A DNA stretch of 40,240 nucleotides, from positions 1-40,240 of the forward strand of contig JWZX01002699.1 of assembly GCA_001275005.1 (NCBI GenBank), read 5' to 3'. The position numbers were made by a program, and so were the translations under genes. Positions 1-40,003 of this stretch are shown piece after piece. This DNA comes from Chrysochromulina tobinii (taxonomy: Eukaryota > Haptophyta > Prymnesiales > Chrysochromulinaceae). The stretch's first letter is position 1, and the number at the start of each line of letters is the position of its first letter. The notes below the pieces were generated by a model. The model was not told where the DNA came from and searched no databases. It worked only from the letters and a program-made list of their open reading frames with translations.

Positions 1-2
1 GG

Positions 3-3000
3 GAGCAGTCGGCCGCGGCGGCCGCCGCCGAAAAGGCGAGCGCGGTCCGCGGGGCCGAGGCGGAGATCGCGCGAGCTCTGGCAGCTCGCGATGCGGCGAG
101 CGCGCGCGCCGTGTCGGCGGAGGCGACGTCGGCGGCGGCCGCTGCTGAGAGGGAGGAGGCTGTGCGTGCGGCGGAGCGTAACGTGGCGTCCGCGCTGCAG
201 CTGCGCGACGCGGCCTCGGCACGGGCGACCGAGGCGGCGCAGGCTAGGGCACGCGCCGAGGCGGAGGCGAAGGCGGCGGAGGCCGCGGCCGAGTCGGCGA
301 TCCGCTCCGCCACGCTGGAGCACGAGGCGGCCAAGGCCCTGGCGCAGAGAGCCGAGGCCAGCGCCGAGGCCAAGGCGAGCAGCGCGACCGAGGCGGCGGA
401 GGCGGCGGTGAAGGAGGCGCACCTGCGCTCCCTCGATCTCGAGGCGCAGCTCGCGTCGAGCTCGCGCGAGCTCGCGCAGCTGCGCGACGAGCTCGCGCGG
501 GAGAGGAGCGCGAGCGCACGCCGGCTCGAGGCAGCCGAGGCGGCGGCGGCGCGGCTCGAGCGGAGCGAGCGGGAGCTGCTCGCGCGTGGGGAGGCGCTCG
601 AGGCGGCGCGTGCGAGGGAGGCGGCCCGCGAGGCGGCGAGAGAGGCGGCGGTGGAGGCGGCGCGCCAAGCGGACGCGCAGGCGGCGGCGGCGGCGGCGCA
701 GGCGGCGGTGGAGCAGGCGCGCGAAGCGGAGAGGAAGGCACGATCAGATGCGGAAGAGGCGCGGGCGCGCGCGAGGGCGGCTGTGGAGGAAGCCAAGGCA
801 CAGACCCAGACGGCCCACGACGACGCGCGCGTCGCCAAGGCGGAGGCTGCTTCGGCTCGTTCGGAGCTGCACCGCGCGCAAGAGGCGACCAAGACGGCGC
901 GTGCGGCGCAGGCAGAGGCCGAGATGGCGGCGGCAGCGGCGGCGGCGGCCGAGGCGAACGCCAAGGCGCGGGCCGGCCTCAAGGTCACCGAAGCCCACGG
1001 AGCGACCGAAGCCAAGCTCGTGGCCGAAGCCCGGGCCGCGGTGGCGGCCGAGGCCCAGGCGGCGGCCGAGGCGGCGGCGGCGGCCGCGAGCTTGGCGGAG
1101 AAGGGAGCTCGAGCGGAGCTGGACGCTACCGCCAAGGCCGCGGCGGTGGCGGTGGCGGCGGCGCAAGCGCGCGCGCACGAAGCCGAGTCCAAGGCACGCA
1201 GCTCCATCGAAGAAGTCAAGGCGCGCGCGAGGGCGGCTGTGGAGGAAGCCAAGGCACAGACCCAGACGGCCCACGACGACGCGCGCGCCGCCAAGGCGGA
1301 GGCGGCTTCGGCTCGTTCAGAGCTGCACCGCGCCCAAGAGGCGACCAAGACGGCGCGTGCGGCGCAGGCAGAGGCCGAGATGGCGGCGGCGTCGGCGGCG
1401 GCGGCCGAGGCGAACGCCAAAGCGCGAGCGGCGGCGAAGGCGGCGGAGGCGTTCGCGGCGATCGAGGCCAAGGGCGTGGCCGAAGCCAAAGTGGAGGCAG
1501 CGCGGGCGGAGGCCGACTTGGCGCGCGCGGAGGCGGCGCGGGCGGACAAGGGGCGTGCGGAGGCGCGAAACGACGCGTTGCAGGCCAAGGCGCGGTCCGA
1601 GGCGTCGCTCGATGTGAGTGTCGTTAATTGCCTCTTGATGGCCTCTTCTGATTGCCTCTGATTGCCTCTGATTGCACAGGTCCGAGGCGTCGCTTGATGT
1701 GAGAGCGCGCGTGCAGACGCCCTCCTTGGCTGATTGCTGCTGATGACCCTCTGACAGCCTCTGATTGCTTTCTTCATCAGGTGAGAGCGCGCGCGCAGAG
1801 GCCCTCCTTGGCTGATTGCTGCTGATGACCCTCTGACAGCCTCTGATTGCTTTCCTCATCAGGTGAGAGCGCGCGCAGAGGCCCCCCTTGGCTGATTGCT
1901 GCTGATGTCCCTCTGACAGCCTCTGATTGCTTTCCTCATCAGGTGAGAGCGCGCGCACAGGCCCCCCTTGGCTGATTGCTGCTGATGACCCTCTGACAGC
2001 CTCTGATTGCTTTCCTCATCAGGTGAGAGCGCGCGCAGAGGCCCAGGCACACGCAGCCAAGGCGGAGGCTGCGAGGGCTGAGGCGGCGAGGTCCGAGGCC
2101 GTTGAGGCCGCCAGGACGGCAGGGGCGCGAGCGGAGGCGGCAGAGGCGGCCAAGGCGGCCGCTGTTAAGGCCGAGGCCGCCGCGACGGCGCGGGAAGAGG
2201 CCGCAGAGGCGGCAAGGGCGACTGCAGAGGCGGCCAGGGCAAGTGCGGAAGCGGCGAGGGCGGAGGCTGTACTGGCCGAAGCGGCGGCGGTGGCGAGGGC
2301 GGAGGCCGCGGAGGCAGCCAAGGCGGACGCTGTGAGGGCTGAGGCGGCGGCCCTTGCCCGCGCCGAGGCGGCGGAGGCGGCGAGGGAGGCGGCGGAGGCG
2401 GCGAGGGCGGCGTCGGCGGAGGCGGCGAGGGCGCTCAGCACGGCGCGGTCCCAGCCGCCGGTGCAAGCACAGTCCTTACGGGCCGCCGAGCCCGAGACGC
2501 GCCGTGCTGAGCAGCTGGCCGAGCAGCTGGCCGCCGTGCAGACGGAGCTGGCGGAGGCGCGCGCGGCGCTCCTCGGGCAGCCGCTCCGAGCCGACCAGGC
2601 CGCCGCCGTCCAAGCCGCCGCCGCCGGCAGGGTGGACAGAGTGGACAGGGTGGACATTGTCCTGCCGAGTCCGGCCACGTCCCCAGCCGTTGAAGGTCAA
2701 GTCGCTCCATTGACGAACCAACCGTTGACGAACCAGCCGTTGACGAACCAGGGTCCCGTCGAGAAGGACGTGAGAGCGCTCGAGCGCCGTACTGAGCGCC
2801 AGTTGGAGCTCGAGCACTCGACGGCCGAGGCGCTGCGCGCGCAGCTCGCCGCCCAGGCCGAGCTGCACCTCGCGCAGCTCGCCGCCCAAGCCGAGGCTCA
2901 CCAAGCCCAGCAGAGGGAGATGGCGGAGCGTCATCGTGCAGCCCTCGCCGAGAAGCGCGAGGAGAAGAAGAGCCTCGCGAAACAGCTGGCCGACGTGAGC

Positions 3001-4885
3001 AAGGCGCAGCGGCGTGAAGAGAAGCGAGCGTCGGACAAGAGCGCCGAGTTGAGCGAGGACCTCGAGAAGCTGCGCGCCGAGCTGAGCACTGTGGAGGCCG
3101 AGCGGCGGGAGCTCGAGGAGGCGGCGAGATCGCGCCTCAAATCGCTCAAGGCGCTGCAGGAGGATGCGGCGAGGGCGATCAAGGCGCTCCATGCCGAGCG
3201 CGCCGAGAAGACGCAGCTCGAGAGCCGGCTGGCGCATTCGATCGCCGAGGTTGGCTCGCACAAGTCCGCCGTGTCGCGGCTGACGAAAGAGGTGGCCGCC
3301 AAGCACGCACCTGATTGCACCGGATTGCACCGGATGGCACCCGATGGCCTCACTCATCAGGTGGCCTAAGGACGCACCTGATTCAGGTGGCCTAAGGACG
3401 CACCTGATTGCACCTGATTGCACCTGATTGCACCGGATGGCCTCCCTCATCAGGTGGCCGCCAAGGACGCTCAGTTGCGCGAGGTGCGCGCGCGCCTCGA
3501 GGAGCGATCTGCCGCGAGCCTGGGCCACGAGGACGAGCGCAAGCGGCTCGAGGAGAAGCTCAAGGGGATGCAGGGCGAGCTCGCACGTCGAGATCGTCAA
3601 GCAAGCGATCTCAAAGCGAAGGTGGATCCCCTCGAAGGCTTGCACAAGTCCTCATTGCACCTGAGTGCCCCTGAGTGCACTTGAGTGCACCTGAGTGCAC
3701 CTGAGTGCACATGATTGCACCTGAGTGCACCTGATTGCTTTGGATGGCCTCCCTCATCAGGTGGATCAGCTCGAGGGCAGCCTGCTGAGTGAGAAGAGCG
3801 CCGTCGAGGAGCGCGCGGCGCAGTCCGCCGCCGAGCCCCTGAGGCGGGCCCTCGAGCGCAAGGAAACCGCGCTGCGCTCGATGAAGCTCAAGCTCGAGGT
3901 GGTTCAGGCGGAGCTGAGTGGCAGCCGGGCGGAGCTTGAAGGCGCCAAGGCGGAGGTGGCGAAGCGCGAGGCGAGGACGCGCAAGCAATCCGAGGCGGCG
4001 CACGCAGCGCTCGGTGTGCAGCTCGACAGGGCGCACGCCGACCGTGATGAGCTTCGGCTGCTCCTCCATCGGATCGCCCATGTCCTCGAGCAGACAAGGA
4101 CGAGTAGAGAAGCGACCGAGGCGGCCGGCCAGCGGCGCGCCGTCGCGGGCGGTACCACGGGTTCGTCAGCGCTACGCGAGCTCGGCGAGCTCGGCGGAGA
4201 TTTGGAGCTCGCTGCCAACGAGGACATGCAAGTGAGTGCGCTGGCCCACTCGCTGCTGCAGCTCTCTCCCGAGCAGCTCGGGCTGAGGCCGCGCACCGAG
4301 ATCGGGGGCGAGATGGTGAGCGGCCAGGGGGGCGCGAGCGAGAACGCGCCACCGCAGCTGCTGCTCACGTCCGCTGCCGATGTGGCAGCGGCCACGAGCA
4401 CCTCGCGGCATCAGAAGCAGCTCAGGACGGCGCTCTCGGAGCCGTTGGACGCGCAGGTGCGTTGATTGCCACTGATGATCTGCCTTGCATGCACGTGCTC
4501 ACCACGGCGCTCTCGGAGCCGTTGGACGCACAGGCCGCGTTCACCATCTTCTCGCGCCTCGTGCAGCAGCTGCCGCCATCCGGGGCGGCGCAGCAGCGCG
4601 GGACGGACGAGGCGGTGCAGCAGGCGCTCCATGAGTACGAGGCGATGCTCCGTCAGATCCGCTCGCAAGTCGTCACCGAGAAGGCGGACTACGAAGTCAA
4701 GCTCGCGCAGCGAGATCGCGTGATTGCGGGGCTGCGCGTCCGGCTGCAGGTGAGTGTCGTTAATTGCATCTTGATGGCCTCTTCTGATTGCCTCTGATTG
4801 CCGCTGATTGCGGCGGCTGCGCGTCCGACTGCAGGAGGCCGGGGTCGCGGGCACGTATGGGGTCGGCCACGTCACGTTTGAGTGA
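3..4885 (+). CDS. Giant Ala/Glu-rich coiled-coil protein, 5' end outside window, six exons
   Basis: The reading frame is open from base 3, so the 5' end lies outside the window. Exons inferred from frame and GT-AG signals are 3-1613, 2023-3291, 3454-3621, 3761-4456, 4534-4749 and 4835-4885; every junction is phase 0 and the total is about 1,336 residues before TGA. The first 800 or so residues are almost pure Ala/Glu/Lys/Arg with regular EAA spacing, as in a very long single alpha-helix or coiled coil. A less biased stretch with NQPLT repeats (about 2700-2760) follows, then a more conventional coiled coil, then a short non-repetitive tail. No catalytic domain is visible. The family is not recognised; a cytoskeletal or structural filament role is only a guess. 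All five introns are unusual repeat-built introns, listed separately. Confidence is high for coding and moderate for the exact splice sites, since duplicated exon ends give alternatives. Confidence 0.75.
765..1429 (+). repeat. Two 209-bp direct repeats inside the first exon (765-973 and 1221-1429)
   Basis: The segment at 765-973 recurs at 1221-1429 with an offset of 456 bp (152 codons) and only scattered substitutions. Both copies encode the same roughly 69-residue block, including EAKAQTQTAHDDAR and SELHRAQEATKTARAAQ. The offset is a multiple of three, so the copies are in frame. This is a segmental duplication within the coiled coil. Confidence 0.85.
1614..2022 (+). repeat. Intron made of a tandem array of intron-like units
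   Basis: This phase-0 intron lies between codons ending at 1613 and starting at 2023. It opens with GTGAGTGTCGTTAATTGC and holds a second copy of the upstream exon end (GGTCCGAGGCGTCGCT, 1680-1695; original 1595-1610). Four tandem units follow: 1699-1780, 1781-1862, 1863-1942 and 1943-2022 (82, 82, 80, 80 bp). Each unit begins GTGAGAGCGCGC, the same bases that start the next exon, and ends CATCAG, so each could be an intron by itself. The internal sequence has a roughly 10-bp rhythm of CTGATTGC-like words. Confidence 0.8.
3292..3453 (+). repeat. Repeat-built intron, three GTGGCC...CAG units
   Basis: This is a phase-0 intron of 162 bp. It is made of units 3292-3360, 3361-3386 and 3387-3453, each starting GTGGCC and ending in CAG. 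The first unit opens with GTGGCCGCCAAGCACGC, which nearly matches the first 17 bases of the downstream exon (3454-3470). The interior has CACCTGATTG decamers and ends GGATGGCCTCCCTCATCAG. The middle units carry an in-frame TAA (GTG GCC TAA), so retaining them would truncate the protein. Confidence 0.75.
3622..3760 (+). repeat. Repeat-built intron with a 10-bp minisatellite
   Basis: This is a phase-0 intron of 139 bp. It opens with GTGGATCCCCTCGAAGGC, a diverged copy of the downstream exon start at 3761 (GTGGATCAGCTCGAGGGC). From about 3657 to 3740 the sequence repeats with an exact 10-bp period, consensus CTGAGTGCAC or CTGATTGCAC. It ends TTTGGATGGCCTCCCTCATCAG apart from the first two bases, the same 3' end as the preceding intron. 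Confidence 0.75.
4457..4533 (+). repeat. Short intron whose 3' half duplicates the upstream exon end
   Basis: This is a phase-0 intron of 77 bp. Its last 30 bases (4504-4533) repeat the last 30 bases of the upstream exon (4427-4456) with one mismatch, ending in the same GCxCAG. The unique part starts GTGCGTTGATTGCCACTGATG and contains TTGCATGCACGTGCTCACC, a segment that has a match near 39600. Confidence 0.7.
4750..4834 (+). repeat. Short intron sharing its 5' half with the intron at 1614
   Basis: This is a phase-0 intron of 85 bp. The first roughly 50 bases, from GTGAGTGTCGTTAATTGC, are nearly identical to those at 1614. The last 20 bases (4815-4834) repeat the upstream exon end (4730-4749) with one mismatch. 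Removing it joins the coiled-coil exon to a final 16-codon exon ending TGA at 4883-4885. Confidence 0.7.
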
Positions 4886-20670: not shown

Positions 20671-22379
20671 CGGGACGGCGCCCATCGCGGTGCTGTTGCC
20701 GCTCGCCATGCTGGTGCAGCTACTCCGATGCTGCTGCACCCACCGATCCTCGAGCTCCGCGAGCCTGGCGGCTTGCTGGCGCAGCAGCTCGGCTTGCTTC
20801 GCTTCGGTCAGCCGAGCCCGGTGAAGCTCAGCCTCCACATCAGCGAGCTGCGACCGGTGGAGGGAGAGCTCCGCCTGCAGCCGCTGCGCATTGGGCCGCG
20901 TGCCAGCGCGTTCATCGAGCGTGCGCCCTCGCCCGCACCGCCCACGGCCGCCGCCGTGGCATCGTCGCGGTTCGTGACGCCCGCTGCCGCAAGGAGCTCC
21001 GCCGCCGTAGCCGTACTGAGCGCCGCCGCCGCCGCACCCGGCGCGCCGACGCTCGAGTCGGCGCCGTACTGAGCGCCCGCCGCGAGCTGCTGCTGCTGCG
21101 CCCGCAGCGCCGTACTGAGCGCCTCGCTCGCCACCTGATTCGCCTCCTGCGCCGCGCGCTGCTCAGCCTCGTGCGCCGCACGCTGTGCCGCGTCGCACTG
21201 CGCCTCGAGGCGCGCGAGCACGCCTCATCAGTGGTCATAAAGGGCAATCAATGGCAATCAATGGCAATCAAGGGTTCTCAAGGGAGATCGCACCTGCGCC
21301 TCGAGGCTCGCGACCTTGGCCTCGAGGGCGCGCCGTGCTGAGCGCTCGCGCTGTAGGTCCTCCTCCAAAGTCGCGAGGTGGCGCTCGGCGGCGGAGAGCT
21401 GTGCCGACGTCTTGGCCAGCTGGAGCTCCTTGTGCGACAGCTGCCCTTCGAGGCGTCCCACAGCCGCTTGCGCCGCTGCCATGTCCGCCGCCGCCCTCTC
21501 TGCAGCCGCCACCGCGGCGGCGCCACTAGGGGAGGCATGGCTGGCGCGGAGCTGCTCCTCGAGGGCGGCGCGCTGCTTCTCGGTGGCGAGCTGCGTCGCC
21601 GTCGCGCGCTCGAGCTCCACGCGCAGCACCTCCATCTCGGCCCCCGCGGCCTCCTGCACCTGCTCGAAGCTCGAGCGCATCTCGAACAGAGCTTCCTGCG
21701 CTTGCTGGTGCGAGCGTGCCGCCTCGCGCGCCTCATCCTGCGCGCGGAGCAGCTTGGCGGCATTCGCCTGCTCGCGCTCGCGGTACTGCTCCGCCGCCGC
21801 GCTCGCCTGCTCTTTCCACGCCGCCTCGCGTGCCGCGAGGGCGGCCTCGAGCGCCTCGCTCGCCACGGTCTCGCTCTTGCTGTCCACCTCGCGCAGCTGC
21901 CGCTCGAGCCGCCGAATGGTCGCCTCTTGGTTCTTGAGCGAGGTGAACTCGCGGTCGTAGTCGGCGATCTGCTGGCGCAGGCCCTCCACCTCGACCGCCT
22001 CCGCCGCCAGCCGGCGTACCTCGCTGCTCACCTCTCGCAGCAGCGGCACCGGGTCCGGAGCGTCGTCGAGCGAGCGGTAGAGCGAGAGGAAGGCGGTCTC
22101 CGCCGAGCTCTGACGCCGGGTGAGCGCATCCACTTCCGCCTGGAAGGCGCGGATCACGGAGCCAATCTGCGCAGGGCGCTCCTCCGCCGCGACCGCGCGG
22201 AACTGGCGGATGACCTCCTTGAGAGCATCGCGGCCCTCGGCCGAACGCTCCTGGTTGTCGGCGATCTCGAGGCCCTGCTGGTCGAGGGCAATGTGGCGCT
22301 CCGCGGAGAGGTCCGCGCGCGTCCACACCGCGATTGCCGCCTCCAGCTTGGCGACGACGGGAGGCGGTGCCGTCTTCAT
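19945..22379 (-). CDS. CASP-type golgin, C-terminally anchored Golgi coiled-coil protein
   Basis: Inferred exons (minus strand): 22379-21294, 21197-20946 and 20883-19945, about 758 residues. The N-terminal part matches the CASP/CUX1 family (SAETAFLSLYRSLDDAPDPV). The C-terminus has the family hallmark segment (YEEKVNPFAAFHQRERQQRY, then EKLMLNFSQFFLANRHARLF) followed by a single membrane anchor (FLFGYMVCLHLLVSGAMY) and a short tail. CASP proteins act in Golgi membrane tethering and retrograde transport. The first intron is phase 0 with a CTGATTGC-type repeat. The second (20945-20884, 62 bp, GTGGGC to CGCAG) is inferred because it restores the frame; a frameshift is the alternative. A run of 14 or so Gly codons interrupts the coiled coil. 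The start is 117 bp from the divergent methyltransferase-like gene. Confidence 0.87.
20629..20670 (-). repeat. GCC trinucleotide run coding for poly-Gly
   Basis: About 14 consecutive GCC triplets on the plus strand, read as Gly codons in the minus-strand CASP gene. It is probably length-variable. Confidence 0.9.
21198..21293 (-). repeat. Repeat-built intron in the CASP gene
   Basis: A 96-bp phase-0 intron on the minus strand, GTGCGATC to GGCGCAG. Its interior is a run of decamers (CCATTGATTG twice, then CCCTTTATGA, CCACTGATGA). Its last 14 bases, GCCTCGAGGCGCAG, duplicate the end of the upstream exon. It belongs with the introns of the gene at the left edge of the window. Confidence 0.75.
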
Positions 22380-25950: not shown

Positions 25951-26763
25951 CCTCGCTGTTAGTGCGCGACCCCCCCCCCCCACCGCGCCACGGGCCGGCG
26001 TTGTCTGTTGACTATAGGACACGCCGGGACACGCGGGAGTGCCGCCTCTCGGAGCGGCCAGTGTACTCTCACTCTGGACAATGCTCAGTGGACCAGACGA
26101 GACAGGACTCAGGTCACAGGGATTTCGGCCGCGATCGAAAATGAATCGCACGGGTTGCGATTGCGGGGAGCCGGGAGGAGCAGGAGACGAGACAAATGAA
26201 CAGAGATGAGTTCGGCGATGCCGATTGTCGTGGACGGGACGTCGCACGTTACAGGCGCTAACTCCGGCAAGCGAAAGCGCGTAAGACAGTGCAAAGTCTC
26301 ATTGTTACAATGATTCAATCCGTTCGTAATGTCGGTTTTCGAGGTCCTCGGCAAGCGAAAGCGCGTAAGACAGTGCAAAGTCTCATTGTTACAATGATTC
26401 AATCCGTTCGTAATTTCGGTTTTCGAGGTCGTGGACGGTCGTAAGTCTACGACGAGTCTAGCGGTGTCGTGATGTGAGATGTCCGGTCAGCGGTCTCATA
26501 CCGAGTGCAACGCAACGAGACGCTTACGCGAACGGTCGAGTACTCCAGCGCCGGCGGGGCGCGTGACTCGATGTACCTCACCACCGAGCCGAACTACAAG
26601 AAGTGAAAATTAGCGCCAATGCACCACGGCACAAGGCCCAGTGTCACGCCCTCCGCGACTGAAAGCGTCGTCACGAGCAAGTCAACCGCGATGCGCGTTA
26701 AACATGCCCGTCAAACCGTCTGAGAGCATATCAGCATCTGCTACATTCCCCATAAAGCCACAT
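25951..26763. other. Intergenic, convergent gene ends with an 84-bp tandem duplication
   Basis: No gene is supported. The stretch holds a C-run at about 25970-25980 and the tandem repeat at 26266-26430. Short ORFs over the repeat simply read the duplication. Confidence 0.5.
26266..26430. repeat. 84-bp tandem duplication, almost perfect
   Basis: A unit starting GGCAAGCGAAAGCGCGTAAG at 26266 recurs at 26350. Within the shared stretch only one clear difference is seen (TAATGTCGG against TAATTTCGG). The near-identity points to a recent duplication. Confidence 0.9.
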
Positions 26764-35375: not shown

Positions 35376-38300
35376 TCAGGACGCGGCCGAGAGCACCTTC
35401 TTCGCCATCTCGAGCTCCGACATCGCCGCGAGGAACACGGCTCCTTGCGACTCCTCCTGCTGTGCCTTGGACAGAGAGCCATCTGGAGGCCCGATCTCCA
35501 TGAGAGATTGGCGGTTGGCCTTCAGCTTGCCCATGAGCCTCTCGGTCGCCTTGTCGGGCTTGGTGATCGTGCCGCCAACTCCGACATGTCCTTGATTCAT
35601 CGCGACTTGTCCAGCGGCGCGCGCGCCCCCAGCCGCATGATCGGCTTGCGGCTTGAGCGCCGCGTCGCCCGCCAGGCCCATCTTAAGCGCGACCCGATGC
35701 ACCTCCATGCCGTTGAGCATGATCTTGCGCGACTGCTCAGCGATACCCTTGCGCTCCCGCGCCGGAACGCGCTGCACTCCGTCAAAGCCCACCGGCACGG
35801 CGTGCTCGTGGACGGGCGGCGGCGGCTTGGGCGTCCACCTTTCGAGATGAGGTCGGCGTCGCGACCTGGCAAAGTCGAGCGCCTCTTGCAACTCGGGTGG
35901 CCTGCCGCTCATCGCCTCCTCCTGGTGTTTCGCCCTCGCCTGCTGCAGCGCGATGTCGTGCATGGACTGGTGCAGCAGTCGATGGCGTCTTTGGTGCACG
36001 AGCTCTGCAAATTCAGGAAGGGCGCGCGCAAAGCCCTCGGCGTCCTCCCGAGCGAGGCACAGCACACACGTGTGGTCCGCCGCGCGCACCGCCACCGCAC
36101 TGATCGGCTCTTGCGCGCCACCCTTGCCCACCCCGCCGCCGCTAGTCTTGAGGGCAGTGGCAGCAGGCTGGGCGCCGAGAACCACCCCGTACACGTCGTC
36201 GAGAACGCTCTCGCCCACAAAAGGTGTGTGCGTCTCGTGCGTGAGTGTCGCCACGATCTTCTCGGTTTGCATGCGTCCCGCCCTTTGGAAGAGCCGCAGC
36301 TTGCCCCATCCGGTCCGCTGTGAGAAGACGAGCTTGCCGCTCACGACCACATGGAATGTCTCAATTGGCCTCCCCTCCTCCGCGAGCTTGTCCCCCGGCG
36401 CGTACGCGCGCATTCGAAACGTCTGAGCGAGCGGTACGAGCCGTCGAGGTGCAATCTCCGAGAAGACGGGCGCACGCACGAGCGCTTGCTGGCACAGCAT
36501 GATCTCCGCACGGCGCGCCGTCTGAAACTGGATCAGCTGCTCGTAGATGCGACGTGACTGCGCCAGGAGCGCTTCGGGCAGCACCAGCAGCACGGCCGCC
36601 TCTATGCTCGTCGCCGTGTGCGCGCGCAACATGCCGCCCGCGCCGCCGGCCGTGCTGCCGGGGGAGCCGGAGGAGGCGGAGGAGGCAGGGGTGGCAGGGG
36701 TGGCAGGGGTGGCTGAGGCGGGCTTTCCTTGATCGCCTCCCTCCGTCGACACATTCGTGATGAGGGCGAGGGTCTCGATGCCGAAGACGCTCCCCGGCCC
36801 GAGCGTCGAGTCCTCGTAGATGCCCACGTCGAGCCCCAGAACCTTACCCGTCTGCACGTCGGTGAGCACACGAGGGAAGATTGACATCTTATGCCCAGAG
36901 GCCGCGGCGCCCGAGACGGCGGCGGCCGCGGCCGAGGGTGCGCCGTCTGCGGATGTTTTCGCTCCCCACTCGTTCACCGTCAGGTGAATGGCGCCCGAGA
37001 GCACAATGTAGAATGCGTTGCACGGCTGCCCCTTGCGATAGAGAAGTTCGTACCTGAGGAGGAACGCGATCCTCAGAGGCAATCCAGTGCAATCAGAGGC
37101 CATCAGGATGGTCATTCGAAGCACTCAGAGGCCTCTCAGAGGCAATCCAGTGCAATCAGAGGCCATCAGGATGGTCATTCGAAGCACTCAGAGGCCTCTC
37201 AGAGGCAATCCAGTGCAATCAGAGGTCATCAGGATGGTCATTCGAAGCACTCAGTGGCCTCTCGCACCGGCGCAGCTCGCGCTGCTTGAGCTTGTTGATG
37301 ACGAGATCCTGCAGGTAGTGGTGCGGCCAGCTGCTGAAGAGTGCCGTCGCCTTGAGCATCTTGATGGTCTCGTTGGCAGTGGGCAGTGGCGGTGGCCCCC
37401 TCGCCGGCGCTGTCGCCGCCTTTGACGGCGCCGTCACGGGCGGTGGCGGAGAAGCTCCTTCGTGCAAGATCTCAAAGCCAGGGGGCGCCGTCTCGGGCAG
37501 CACGGTCGGCGCGCCGTCTCGGGCAGCCGGTGGCTCTTCGGCGGGTGGGTTGCCCTTGGCCGGCGCAGACGACGGGCGGCCGCCCGCCTGCGCCTGCGCT
37601 GCAGCATACTCCCTCTCCTCTGCCGTCTCTTCAAATCCCGGCGGCATGAGGTACATTGCAGCAGCTGATTGCGGGCGTGCGGGCGGTGGTGGCTTGCGCG
37701 GCAACGTCGGTGCCAAGGGCTTCTCAGGGCTTCTCTTCTCCGCCTGCGCCGGCGGGCGAGGGCCCGCGGAGTCTCTGTGAACGTGGACGAAGCCACCATC
37801 GGTAACGGTCGCGCTGCGACGGTTACCGAGGTCTGGTGTGGAGGCACTATGGCGAAGGTGGAAGCGGCTTGCGTGCGATGACGAGGTGGGCCGACTCGAC
37901 AAGACTGGCGAGGGAGACTGCGGCCGTCGCAGCATTGAGGCGGCGGCTGAGGCAGGGCGTGCACCTTGCTGCTGTGGCTGCTGCTGCTGCGGCTGTGTCT
38001 GCGTCTGCGTCTGCGTCGGCAACATATCGTCCAACGAGGGATGCGACAGCAGTGGTGTCCGCACGAGAACGGGGTAAGCGTGCATCAAAGGTGCGCGAGG
38101 TAAGCCTCGCGTATCGAGCAGGAAGGCATCAGACCGCACCGGGAAGGCACGGGGCTCCAGCTCCAGGACCACGTCGTCTGCCATGTAGTCCACATCAATC
38201 GCATCGGCCGCCACCGAAGTGACCTTGCCGATCACGATCTTGAGCTGTGTCGCGACGGCCGCAGGAGCGGAGCTTGGCACGGACGAGCTGCTGCGTTTTG

Positions 38301-38604: not shown

Positions 38605-40003
38605 GAACCACGATGATCTCCGCACCTTAATCATTGCAGTGGCGTCCTGGTTCTCCCTGCTGCTGGTCGGCCTCCTTTTCCATTTTCTCTGGTCGCGACG
38701 GCAGCAGCACCAGGTCGCTCCGGAAGAGCGGAAGGTGGCTCCGGCGCCCATGTACCCACGCGAGAGCCACACGGTGTACCACGACCCCATCGGTTCAGTC
38801 GTTCTTGTCGCGGGCATGGAATCGCGAGCGCTCTTCGCACCGCAAAATCGGACTCCATATCCAAGAGAGCGCTTGCAGCTCGCCTCCATGGGGCGTCCAC
38901 GATTGCAACCCGGTGTCGCGGAGCTCCACGCCGCCGCCAAACCCGTCGCCACACCTACCGCCACAGACGGCGACAGACGCCCTTTGCCTACCGCCGCCAC
39001 CCCTGCCGTCGCCCCTGCCGTCGCCCCTGCCGTCGCATATTTTGGTGATACGTCCGTCATTCTAGACGCCGCACATCCCGCTGCTGCACCTGGCGCCGCA
39101 CCAACCACCGCCACTGAAGGGGAAGCAAGGAAAGAGATTGAGGAGTTGGCGCTGCGCAAAGATGCGCTACGGCGACGACGAAGGCTGCCATTCAAGCTCT
39201 CGTTGTTCCGATCGCGTCCACCGCCTCCACTGGCACCCGGCTCTGGCACGGCTGAGCAGCTACCGAAACTGGCCGCGCCAGCTACCGCAACGGCAACCAC
39301 GCCTGCAATGACACCTGCGGACGCACCTGCGCACGCTCTAGCCGCCTCTGCTGCCCTCGGGCAGCCACCAGCTGGAGACCTGGAACCAGAACCAGCACCA
39401 GCACCAGCGCCAGCGCCAGCTCCAGCGCCAGCTCCAGCACCAACAGAGCAGCAGCGGCCTGGAAGGAGCGGCAGCAGCAGCACTCCCTCCGACGAGCCGC
39501 CGCCGCACGCAGAGACGCCGGCTGTCGAGCGCCGTCTCGAGCCCTCCCGCGAGGACTCCCGCTTGGACGTGGCCGAGGCCCTCCCCACAGGTGCGCTAGG
39601 CTGCATGCAAGTGCTCACCACGACGCCCCCCCGCTTGGACGTGGCCGAGGCCCGCGCGCTCAATGCGAGGCTTACACGATCCCTCGAATTTGCCGAGGCA
39701 GCTACTACTGCATCGCCGGCTGAAGGTGACCAGCAGCGATGTGCACCTGCGAGGGGCTTCGATGCGCTGGCGGCTGCCGGGGGCTACGTTGCAAAGAAGA
39801 GGCCGCCGCCGCCAAAGGGCACCGGGAACGTCGTCGCCGCCAACGCCAACGCCAACGTCACTTCCAGTACATGTAGTAGTACTACTGCTGTCGTCGGTGG
39901 TAGCAGGAAGCGAATTGAGGCCCCGGACGAGGATGTGGGGGCCGGCGTTGGACTACCGGCTGCGTCGCGGGCAAAGGCCCCATTGCCCAGCCAGCAGCAA
40001 TAG
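38603..40003 (+). CDS. Signal-anchor membrane protein with long Ala/Pro-rich tail
   Basis: ATG at 38603, 466 residues, read here as one exon. A single strong membrane segment near the N-terminus (LIIAVASWFSLLLVGLLFHFLW) is followed by basic residues (SRRQQ), consistent with a type II/III signal-anchor. An ordered stretch follows (SHTVYHDPIGSVVLVAGMES). The rest is low-complexity: Ala/Pro/Thr repeats, a basic block around KDALRRRRRLPFK, a PAPAP run and a LDVAEA motif that occurs twice. No family is recognised. Antisense ORFs over this region have poorer composition and no membrane segment. The gene is divergent from the CNB-domain gene with overlapping start codons. Confidence 0.65.
   Translation: MNHDDLRTLIIAVASWFSLLLVGLLFHFLWSRRQQHQVAPEERKVAPAPMYPRESHTVYHDPIGSVVLVAGMESRALFAPQNRTPYPRERLQLASMGRPRLQPGVAELHAAAKPVATPTATDGDRRPLPTAATPAVAPAVAPAVAYFGDTSVILDAAHPAAAPGAAPTTATEGEARKEIEELALRKDALRRRRRLPFKLSLFRSRPPPPLAPGSGTAEQLPKLAAPATATATTPAMTPADAPAHALAASAALGQPPAGDLEPEPAPAPAPAPAPAPAPAPTEQQRPGRSGSSSTPSDEPPPHAETPAVERRLEPSREDSRLDVAEALPTGALGCMQVLTTTPPRLDVAEARALNARLTRSLEFAEAATTASPAEGDQQRCAPARGFDALAAAGGYVAKKRPPPPKGTGNVVAANANANVTSSTCSSTTAVVGGSRKRIEAPDEDVGAGVGLPAASRAKAPLPSQQQ
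39558..39652 (+). repeat. 23-bp direct repeat flanking an intron-like insert inside an exon
   Basis: CCCGCTTGGACGTGGCCGAG plus GCC occurs at 39558-39580 and 39630-39652, offset 72 bp. The sequence between contains CAGGTGCG and then TGCATGCAAGTGCTCACCACG, closely matching the unique part of the intron at 4457-4533. The frame stays open through it. Confidence 0.75.

Follow-up and report, generated by a model that had tools for sequence, protein, structure and literature searches.

Two candidate families of short introner-like elements with long, variable target duplications in the genome of Chrysochromulina tobinii

The window, by which we mean the whole stretch of 40,240 nucleotides that was analyzed, is one complete contig (C1542) of the Chrysochromulina tobinii assembly. 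Introns and insertions were located in gene 1, in a CASP-like gene and further along the window (Table 1). Conceptual splicing of the five introns of gene 1 produced a single open frame of 1,336 codons, and when any one of them was kept, the first stop occurred at codon index 552, 985, 1036, 1250 or 1335. The stop at 1335 shortens the frame by a single codon, as little coding sequence is left 3' of the last intron, and retention of this intron altered the C-terminus despite a near-equal length. Gene 1 was matched at 92%, across 15% of the query, by a protein with the label Chrysochromulina_OHIO (jgi/Chrpa1), which we take to be from C. parva. For a ferredoxin-like protein of the window, the best named relative was an MMETSP0287 entry (organism 'Chrys...', 69%), followed by Emiliania huxleyi (57%) and then by other haptophytes.

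Table 1. Positions of gene 1, of the introns and of the element-related features in the window
Feature	Position	Strand	Remarks
Gene 1	1-4884		5' end open
Introns of gene 1, re-bounded	1614-2022, 3292-3453, 3622-3760, 4457-4533, 4750-4834		
Exon-side copy of the target (20 b) at the first donor-arm insertion	1594-1613	+	
Donor-arm insert, decamer family (GTGAGTGTCGTTAATTGC + decamers)	1614-1678	+	65 b
Second copy of the 20-b target	1679-1698	+	Within intron 1614-2022
About four tandem units of target copy plus acceptor-arm insert ending in CATCAG	1699-2022	+	82, 82, 80 and 80 b
Exon copy of the target of the tandem units	2023-2044	+	
Acceptor-form intron	3292-3453	+	Target copies 3292-3308 and 3454-3470 (17 b)
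Acceptor-form intron	3622-3760	+	Diverged target copies 3622-3639 and 3761-3778
Empty site	4014-4027	+	Acceptor-arm insertion, with at least these bases duplicated, indicated in a relative by the protein P0192
Donor-form intron, second family (arm + core)	4457-4533	+	Target copies 4427-4456 and 4504-4533
Donor-form intron, decamer family	4750-4834	+	Exon copy ends at 4749, intron copy at 4834
Donor-form intron, CASP-like gene	21198-21293	-	20-b target copies, in the exon at 21294-21313 and in the intron at 21198-21217
Intron with roughly three decamer-like units of 63 b	37054-37267	-	63-b repeat at 37072-37263
Insert carrying the core of the second family, flanked by a perfect 24-b duplication	39558-39653	+	48-b insert at 39582-39629

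The original prediction had described seven introns (those of gene 1, the CASP-like intron and intron 37054-37267) as sharing decamer words, with a 5' half common to two, a 3' end common to several and a copy of the adjoining exon in six. Sequence comparison established that the decamer words are real and that introns 1614 and 4750 are identical at 52 of their first 53 bases. The shared 3' end, GGATGGCCTCCCTCATCAG, was present exactly as a 19-b terminus that introns 3292 and 3622 have in common and was only similar in 1614-2022, so that "several" was generous. Alignment detected the exon copies in six of the seven introns. The exception was intron 37054-37267, at which an exon copy was absent (alignment score of 7.5 against a null 99% value of 8.0) and whose removal left the frame open. 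Intron 1614-2022 contained a 20-b copy in its first part and a 22-b copy in the 80-b unit; because this intron is composite, the copies lie inside it and not at its two outer ends. The copy at 4457 could be aligned over 37 b, with one base differing in the last 30 b, and that at 4750 over 29 b with a gap. The duplication at 3622 was weak (18 b with 3 mismatches), and the scores at 3292 and 3622 merely equalled the 99th percentile of a null that was drawn from the same exons with the true sites included. Intron 3292-3453 also held an inner 26-b tandem repeat (3357 to 3409). The insertion at 39558-39653 is in frame, leaves the ORF open and adds 24 codons, and is apparently an unspliced exonic insertion. 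Its insert spans a CCCCACAG/GTGCGC junction and looks circularly permuted. Elsewhere in the window, an 84-b unit unlike the elements occurred twice at 26265-26430 with 98% matches.

The elements belonged to two families, each with two forms. In the decamer family, the donor form starts with GTGAGTGTCGTTAATTGC and the acceptor form ends in CYTCATCAG. The second family has a donor form of 54 b, made up of GTRCGTTGATTGCCACTGATGAYCTGCCTT and the core (GCATGCAAGTGCTCACCACGGCGC), and its acceptor form consists of the core, a variable stretch and CCCCACAG. Acceptor inserts of the second family measured 38 to 49 b in 8/13 cases and 56 to 121 b in the others, and bases often intervened between core and duplication. 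With the strict pattern, the core was at an offset of 30 to 31 from the donor in 19/27 sites. The acceptor end CYCCACAG was found within 130 b of none of the 27 second-family donor-arm sites. Among cores in stretches that had not been chosen by donor arm (n = 32), 17 had the acceptor arm alone, 3 had the donor arm alone, none had both and, as counted by the strict pattern, 12 had neither; loose patterns applied to all 63 cores detected one core with both arms. The possibility that the two forms are one element in opposite orientations was rejected, as the strand of the core was the same whichever arm accompanied it. If the duplication is long, an element that brought both splice sites would cause the mRNA to retain a surplus copy of the target, and one carrying neither would rarely be able to splice. 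Neither the complementary half-intron forms nor the coincidence of the duplication edge with a splice site had been seen in the original prediction.

The motifs CTGAT and GCTCAC of the cores look like branch points when set against what we take to be the branch-point consensus. The conservation of CTGA in the decamers was discarded as evidence, since the scan pattern itself demanded [CT]TGA. Classified by array (n = 77), the commonest decamers were CTGATTGC (37), CTGATGAC (22), CTGATGGC (11) and CTGAGTGC (4). Homogeneity within arrays was 0.77 against an expected 0.57 (maximum of 200 draws, 0.62) and arrays differed between introns, which indicated local tandem growth. The decamers are the core of one family, as the idea of introns built from decamer arrays implied, but the arrays are local expansions and not the engine of intron formation, and the second family makes introns in the same manner without decamer arrays. 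Whole units were also present head to tail, of 80 to 82 b at 1699-2022 and of 63 b on contig C1677 (26838 to 27107), with AG/GT at the joints, each of which may be an exon of zero length or a site of recursive splicing. Furthermore, the donor-arm insertions at 1614 and on contigs C343 and C1026 lay exactly at the 5' splice site of an apparent older intron.

In order to determine the abundance of the elements, the genome (53.15 Mb in 2,253 contigs) was searched, with each pattern read backwards as the control; the counts are of pattern matches rather than introns and are lower bounds. In the decamer family, the donor arm GTGAGTGTCGTTAATTGC (up to 2 mismatches) was found at least 120 times versus 2 reversed matches, runs of three decamers (up to 1 mismatch, overlapping matches) at least 2,157 times versus 0, and the exact acceptor end TGATTGCCTCCCTCATCAGGTG at least 407 times versus 0. 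In the second family, the core was found at least 1,368 times, the donor arm at least 108 times and the arm-core junction at least 334 times, all versus 0. The decamer family is thus abundant beyond the window, as predicted, and similar introns occurred at unrelated positions in many genes. A further decamer, TGACGAACCC, occurred in runs of three at least 31 times versus 0 reversed (for example, C107:14429-14488 and C1757:11902-12043). Donor arms starting with GC instead of GT (GCGAGTGTCGTTAATTGC) were observed, for example, at C396:11015, C413:19084 and C1067:25568, and GC-AG splicing may be common in this genome. The notion that all introns of the genome belong to these families was rejected: in ten stretches of 5 kb taken at random, an exact CTGATTGC occurred once and a coherent GT-AG duplication also once, the latter being a second-family element with a 35-b copy, and in these stretches coherent GT-AG duplications were no commoner than those of most other dinucleotide pairs. 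No relatives of this genome were present in the collection that contains it, and a search of the set genome_contigs found no other carriers of the elements. In IMG/VR, one contig (L099) matched the second-family core and none matched the decamer acceptor end. At the end of this phage-like contig (4320 to 4554), the second-family core and (TGACGAACCC)n were located between two long direct copies; it is an apparent chimera of phage-like sequence and a relative of this alga, and it shows another decamer family.

The duplications were then scored in 66 merged stretches (207,874 b), in which sites were picked by pattern and not at random, by aligning the exon sequence adjoining each element with the opposite end of its intron; the control consisted of exon pieces taken at other loci. 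Median scores were 23 versus 9 in the control for decamer-family donor sites (n = 33; 20 above the control 99% value), 18.5 versus 8 for acceptor sites (76 found, 75 scored; 37 above), and 23.25 versus 7.5 for second-family acceptor sites (n = 20; 14 above). Second-family donor sites (n = 27) were scored at 24 loci, with a median of 15 versus 6.5 (18 above). Rows above the score cut numbered 31 for donor, 53 for acceptor and 15 for second-family acceptor sites; 22/75 acceptor sites fell below it. The edge of the copy lay exactly at the splice site in 25/31, 37/53 and 14/15 of these rows, respectively, and 6/31, 16/53 and 1/15 were out of register. Donor rows at gap 0 ended in AG in 23/25 cases (second-family donor, 19/22), and acceptor rows in register started with GT in 31/37 cases (second-family acceptor, 13/14), indicating that one splice site comes from the target duplication. 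Predicted U2-type GT/GC-AG borders were present in most rows. The five acceptor rows that lacked both GT and GC were all inspected and were found beside or inside other elements or had a possible donor further in, which suggested that CATCAG is the physical end of the element and not merely a product of selection for splicing. A test of dinucleotides at all direct repeats of the element loci (n = 174; GT-AG, 55; TG-GA, 28; CG-GA, 30) was weak because decamer arrays generate their own repeats; in the window alone (n = 18), GT-AG occurred 5 times and other pairs 0 to 2 times, if reverse readings of these introns are disregarded. A strict requirement for G beside the cut was rejected, this base being present in 15/15, 26/29 and 11/13 sites but in 14/22 second-family donor sites.

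Exclusion of array copies left 15 donor, 29 acceptor and 13 second-family acceptor rows. Among these, duplications were 12 to 31 b (median, 23), 13 to 38 b (median, 26) and 14 to 39 b (median, 29) in length, respectively. Those of second-family donor sites were 10 to 29 b (22 rows scoring at least 10), copies of 10 to 11 b being within chance. Overall, target duplications were of variable length, about 12 to 39 b, in contrast to the fixed 3 to 9 bp of introners of the DNA-transposon type and in keeping with the variable lengths of SINE-like, target-primed reverse transcription. The two copies were identical in 7/13 donor, 11/26 acceptor, 5/12 second-family acceptor and 14/22 second-family donor cases, so that part of the insertions look recent.

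Comparisons with homologues indicated that removal of the elements restores the coding sequence. Spliced NSF-like and phosphatase proteins aligned with PDB proteins across the insertion points, the duplication being absent. A 2,4-dienoyl-CoA-reductase-like protein aligned across an acceptor-form intron that was without a clear duplication. From the frames and homologues, mRNA length would be unchanged by insertion. In the NSF-like gene, P0066, a 99% cluster of 54 JGI sequences, read into the donor-arm intron (...SLAQVSVVNCL), and five relatives at 65 to 73% were continuous through both insertion sites; one of the five, from Chrysotila and with no contig listed, may be a transcript. Presence and absence between close relatives was seen at the protein level in gene 1, among the predicted proteins P0186, P0187 and P0192. 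P0186 (98%, 35 members) had the 3' end of intron 3622 and read into intron 4750 but was missing intron 4457, with the frame exact across the site, and P0187 (89%, 37 members) was without introns 4457 and 4750. P0192 (95% over 27% of the query, 22 members) read through an acceptor-arm core element at a site that is empty in the window (4013-4014), after which it matched the shifted frame of the window except for one residue. As P0186 and P0192 contain unspliced intron sequence, a genomic DNA source is favored; alternatively to genomic polymorphism, they may represent partly spliced transcripts. The tails of P0188 and P0191 diverged from the gene 1 sequence, and these two may be assembly chimeras at repeated sequence.

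The presence of dispersed copies, duplications that were long in comparison with controls and in part perfect, and differences between relatives at the protein level supported the earlier proposal of a recently active introner-like family. We consider it probable that these introns derive from two families of non-autonomous elements, very short and introner-like, with single-arm forms and target duplication, that spread by copy-and-paste at staggered nicks. Each element would comprise a branch-point-like core and one arm, either a donor at the 5' end or an acceptor at the 3' end. Insertion would duplicate about 12 to 39 b of the target, and the edge of the duplication would provide the missing splice site: the AG from the downstream copy of the exon for a donor form and the GT from the upstream copy for an acceptor form. 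Splicing of either form in RNA would then drop the element with one duplicate and restore the coding sequence exactly, while decamers and whole units would multiply locally by slippage or unequal exchange. Because the missing splice site is gained by duplicating the gene that was landed in, introns would differ between close relatives. Each insertion would re-form a splice junction where the duplication ends, and the same site could therefore be hit again, producing stacked or tandem introns and zero-length exons. It is quite possible, if short of probable, that mass intron gain has proceeded through such half-introns, with one core in two complementary forms that each yield an intron only jointly with a long duplicated target, a route other than DNA transposition (retroposition-like or break-templated) and sites hit repeatedly to give stacked or tandem introns.

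Variable long duplications do not fit transposition with a fixed stagger but fit either nicks 12 to 39 b apart followed by copying in, the scheme of target-primed reverse transcription, or the capture of intron pieces during break repair. The first would be retroposition-like, the most likely form of copy-and-paste at widely staggered nicks, and is suggested tentatively for that step alone; no poly(A) tail was noticed on the elements. The CCCCACAG/GTGCGC junction and in-frame position of the insert at 39582 suggested that the template could be DNA, unspliced RNA or circular RNA. In the second, repair with template switching would copy an intron piece bearing one splice site and a branch point into a staggered break and return behind itself, duplicating the exon with no mobile element as such. 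Such copying would account for a small excess of microhomology at ragged ends (donor, 1.13 versus 0.62, P = 0.011; acceptor, 0.79 versus 0.44, P = 0.021), for the 7-b overlaps visible at 4457 and 4750, for the permuted insert at 39582 and for the greater similarity of donor arms from the same contig (7/27 pairs versus 8%; 80/5,000 shuffles; among the matches listed, which were thinned by hand). However, the ends of the core recurred in the same position at many loci (the offset of 30 to 31 in 19/27 sites and the 38- to 49-b inserts in 8/13), and the recurrence of element ends across loci was counted in favor of a discrete element. Repair copying is thus rather unlikely, and retroposition-like movement is slightly ahead of it.

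An ordinary introner, in the sense of a non-autonomous DNA transposon that is bounded by terminal inverted repeats and makes a short, fixed-length duplication, is improbable: introners are widespread in algae and often co-opt a splice site from the duplication (PMC9860276, in its available portion), but the duplication lengths found here varied from about 12 to 39 b and no inverted repeat was visible by eye at the ends of the short elements or the consensus. Local tandem duplication of exon pieces with repeat expansion, as in Cryptococcus and without a mobile family, would explain the tandem units and decamers, yet the same arms and cores were present in unrelated genes at hundreds of places on the contigs and the insert is not exon-derived sequence, making this explanation very improbable. 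Repeats arising by chance in GC-rich coding regions and errors of assembly, for which the repetitiveness of gene 1 and a genome that is a contig set and possibly a metagenome bin might argue, were rejected because duplication scores exceeded the other-locus controls, the genes are conserved and separate metagenome protein clusters (P0066, 54 members; P0186, 35 members) read into the same introns.

The origin of introns in bulk is a long-standing question, and the introners described so far mostly resemble DNA transposons. Retroposition-like or not, the long scar of the present families allows the ancestral exon to be read directly, divergence between the duplicate copies would date the gain of an intron, and the family shows selection sorting insertions by the missing splice site. 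With introns present in some close relatives and absent from others, intron gain becomes testable in an alga that is encountered repeatedly in public metagenomes. These families also suggest that surveys that drop low-complexity introns or seek short duplications would miss others of the kind.

No description of half-intron elements with long duplications was found in the open-access literature, within the portions of the articles that were available and to which the following comparisons refer. Like Rogers and Bendich in 2025 (PMC11782384), we read direct repeats at intron borders as insertion scars; their 213 introns fell into several classes with repeats of 4 to 30 bp (mean, 11.4), and no single family with donor and acceptor forms is described in the available text. 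The introner elements of Amoebophrya (PMC7789003) are likewise repeated introns of an invasive kind, bordered by direct repeats where they meet the exons, but those repeats are of 3 to 5 nt and are accompanied by inverted repeats of 8 to 20 nt. Tandem multiplication of an intron-containing unit, as at 1699-2022, resembles intron gain by repeat expansion in Cryptococcus (PMC2395259), which concerned one gene rather than a dispersed genome-wide family. Daphnia neointrons, attributed to repair of staggered breaks with exon repeats of 4 to 12 bp (PMC4202315), share a repeat of the exon end at the opposite end of the intron, polymorphic introns and internal repeats; here the repeats were longer, and the inserts came from dispersed families instead of lying outside any such family. 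A close likeness is also seen to the introners surveyed by Gozashti et al. in 2022 (PMC9860276), which included a Chrysochromulina MAG and comprise families of similar introns in unrelated genes that bring one splice site with them and obtain the other from the duplicated target. In the available portion of that survey, duplications were of 3 to 9 bp (4 bp in the Chrysochromulina MAG) and low-complexity families were removed, whereas the elements described here have variable duplications of about 12 to 39 b, include decamer arrays of the kind filtered out there and carry one core in both donor and acceptor forms.
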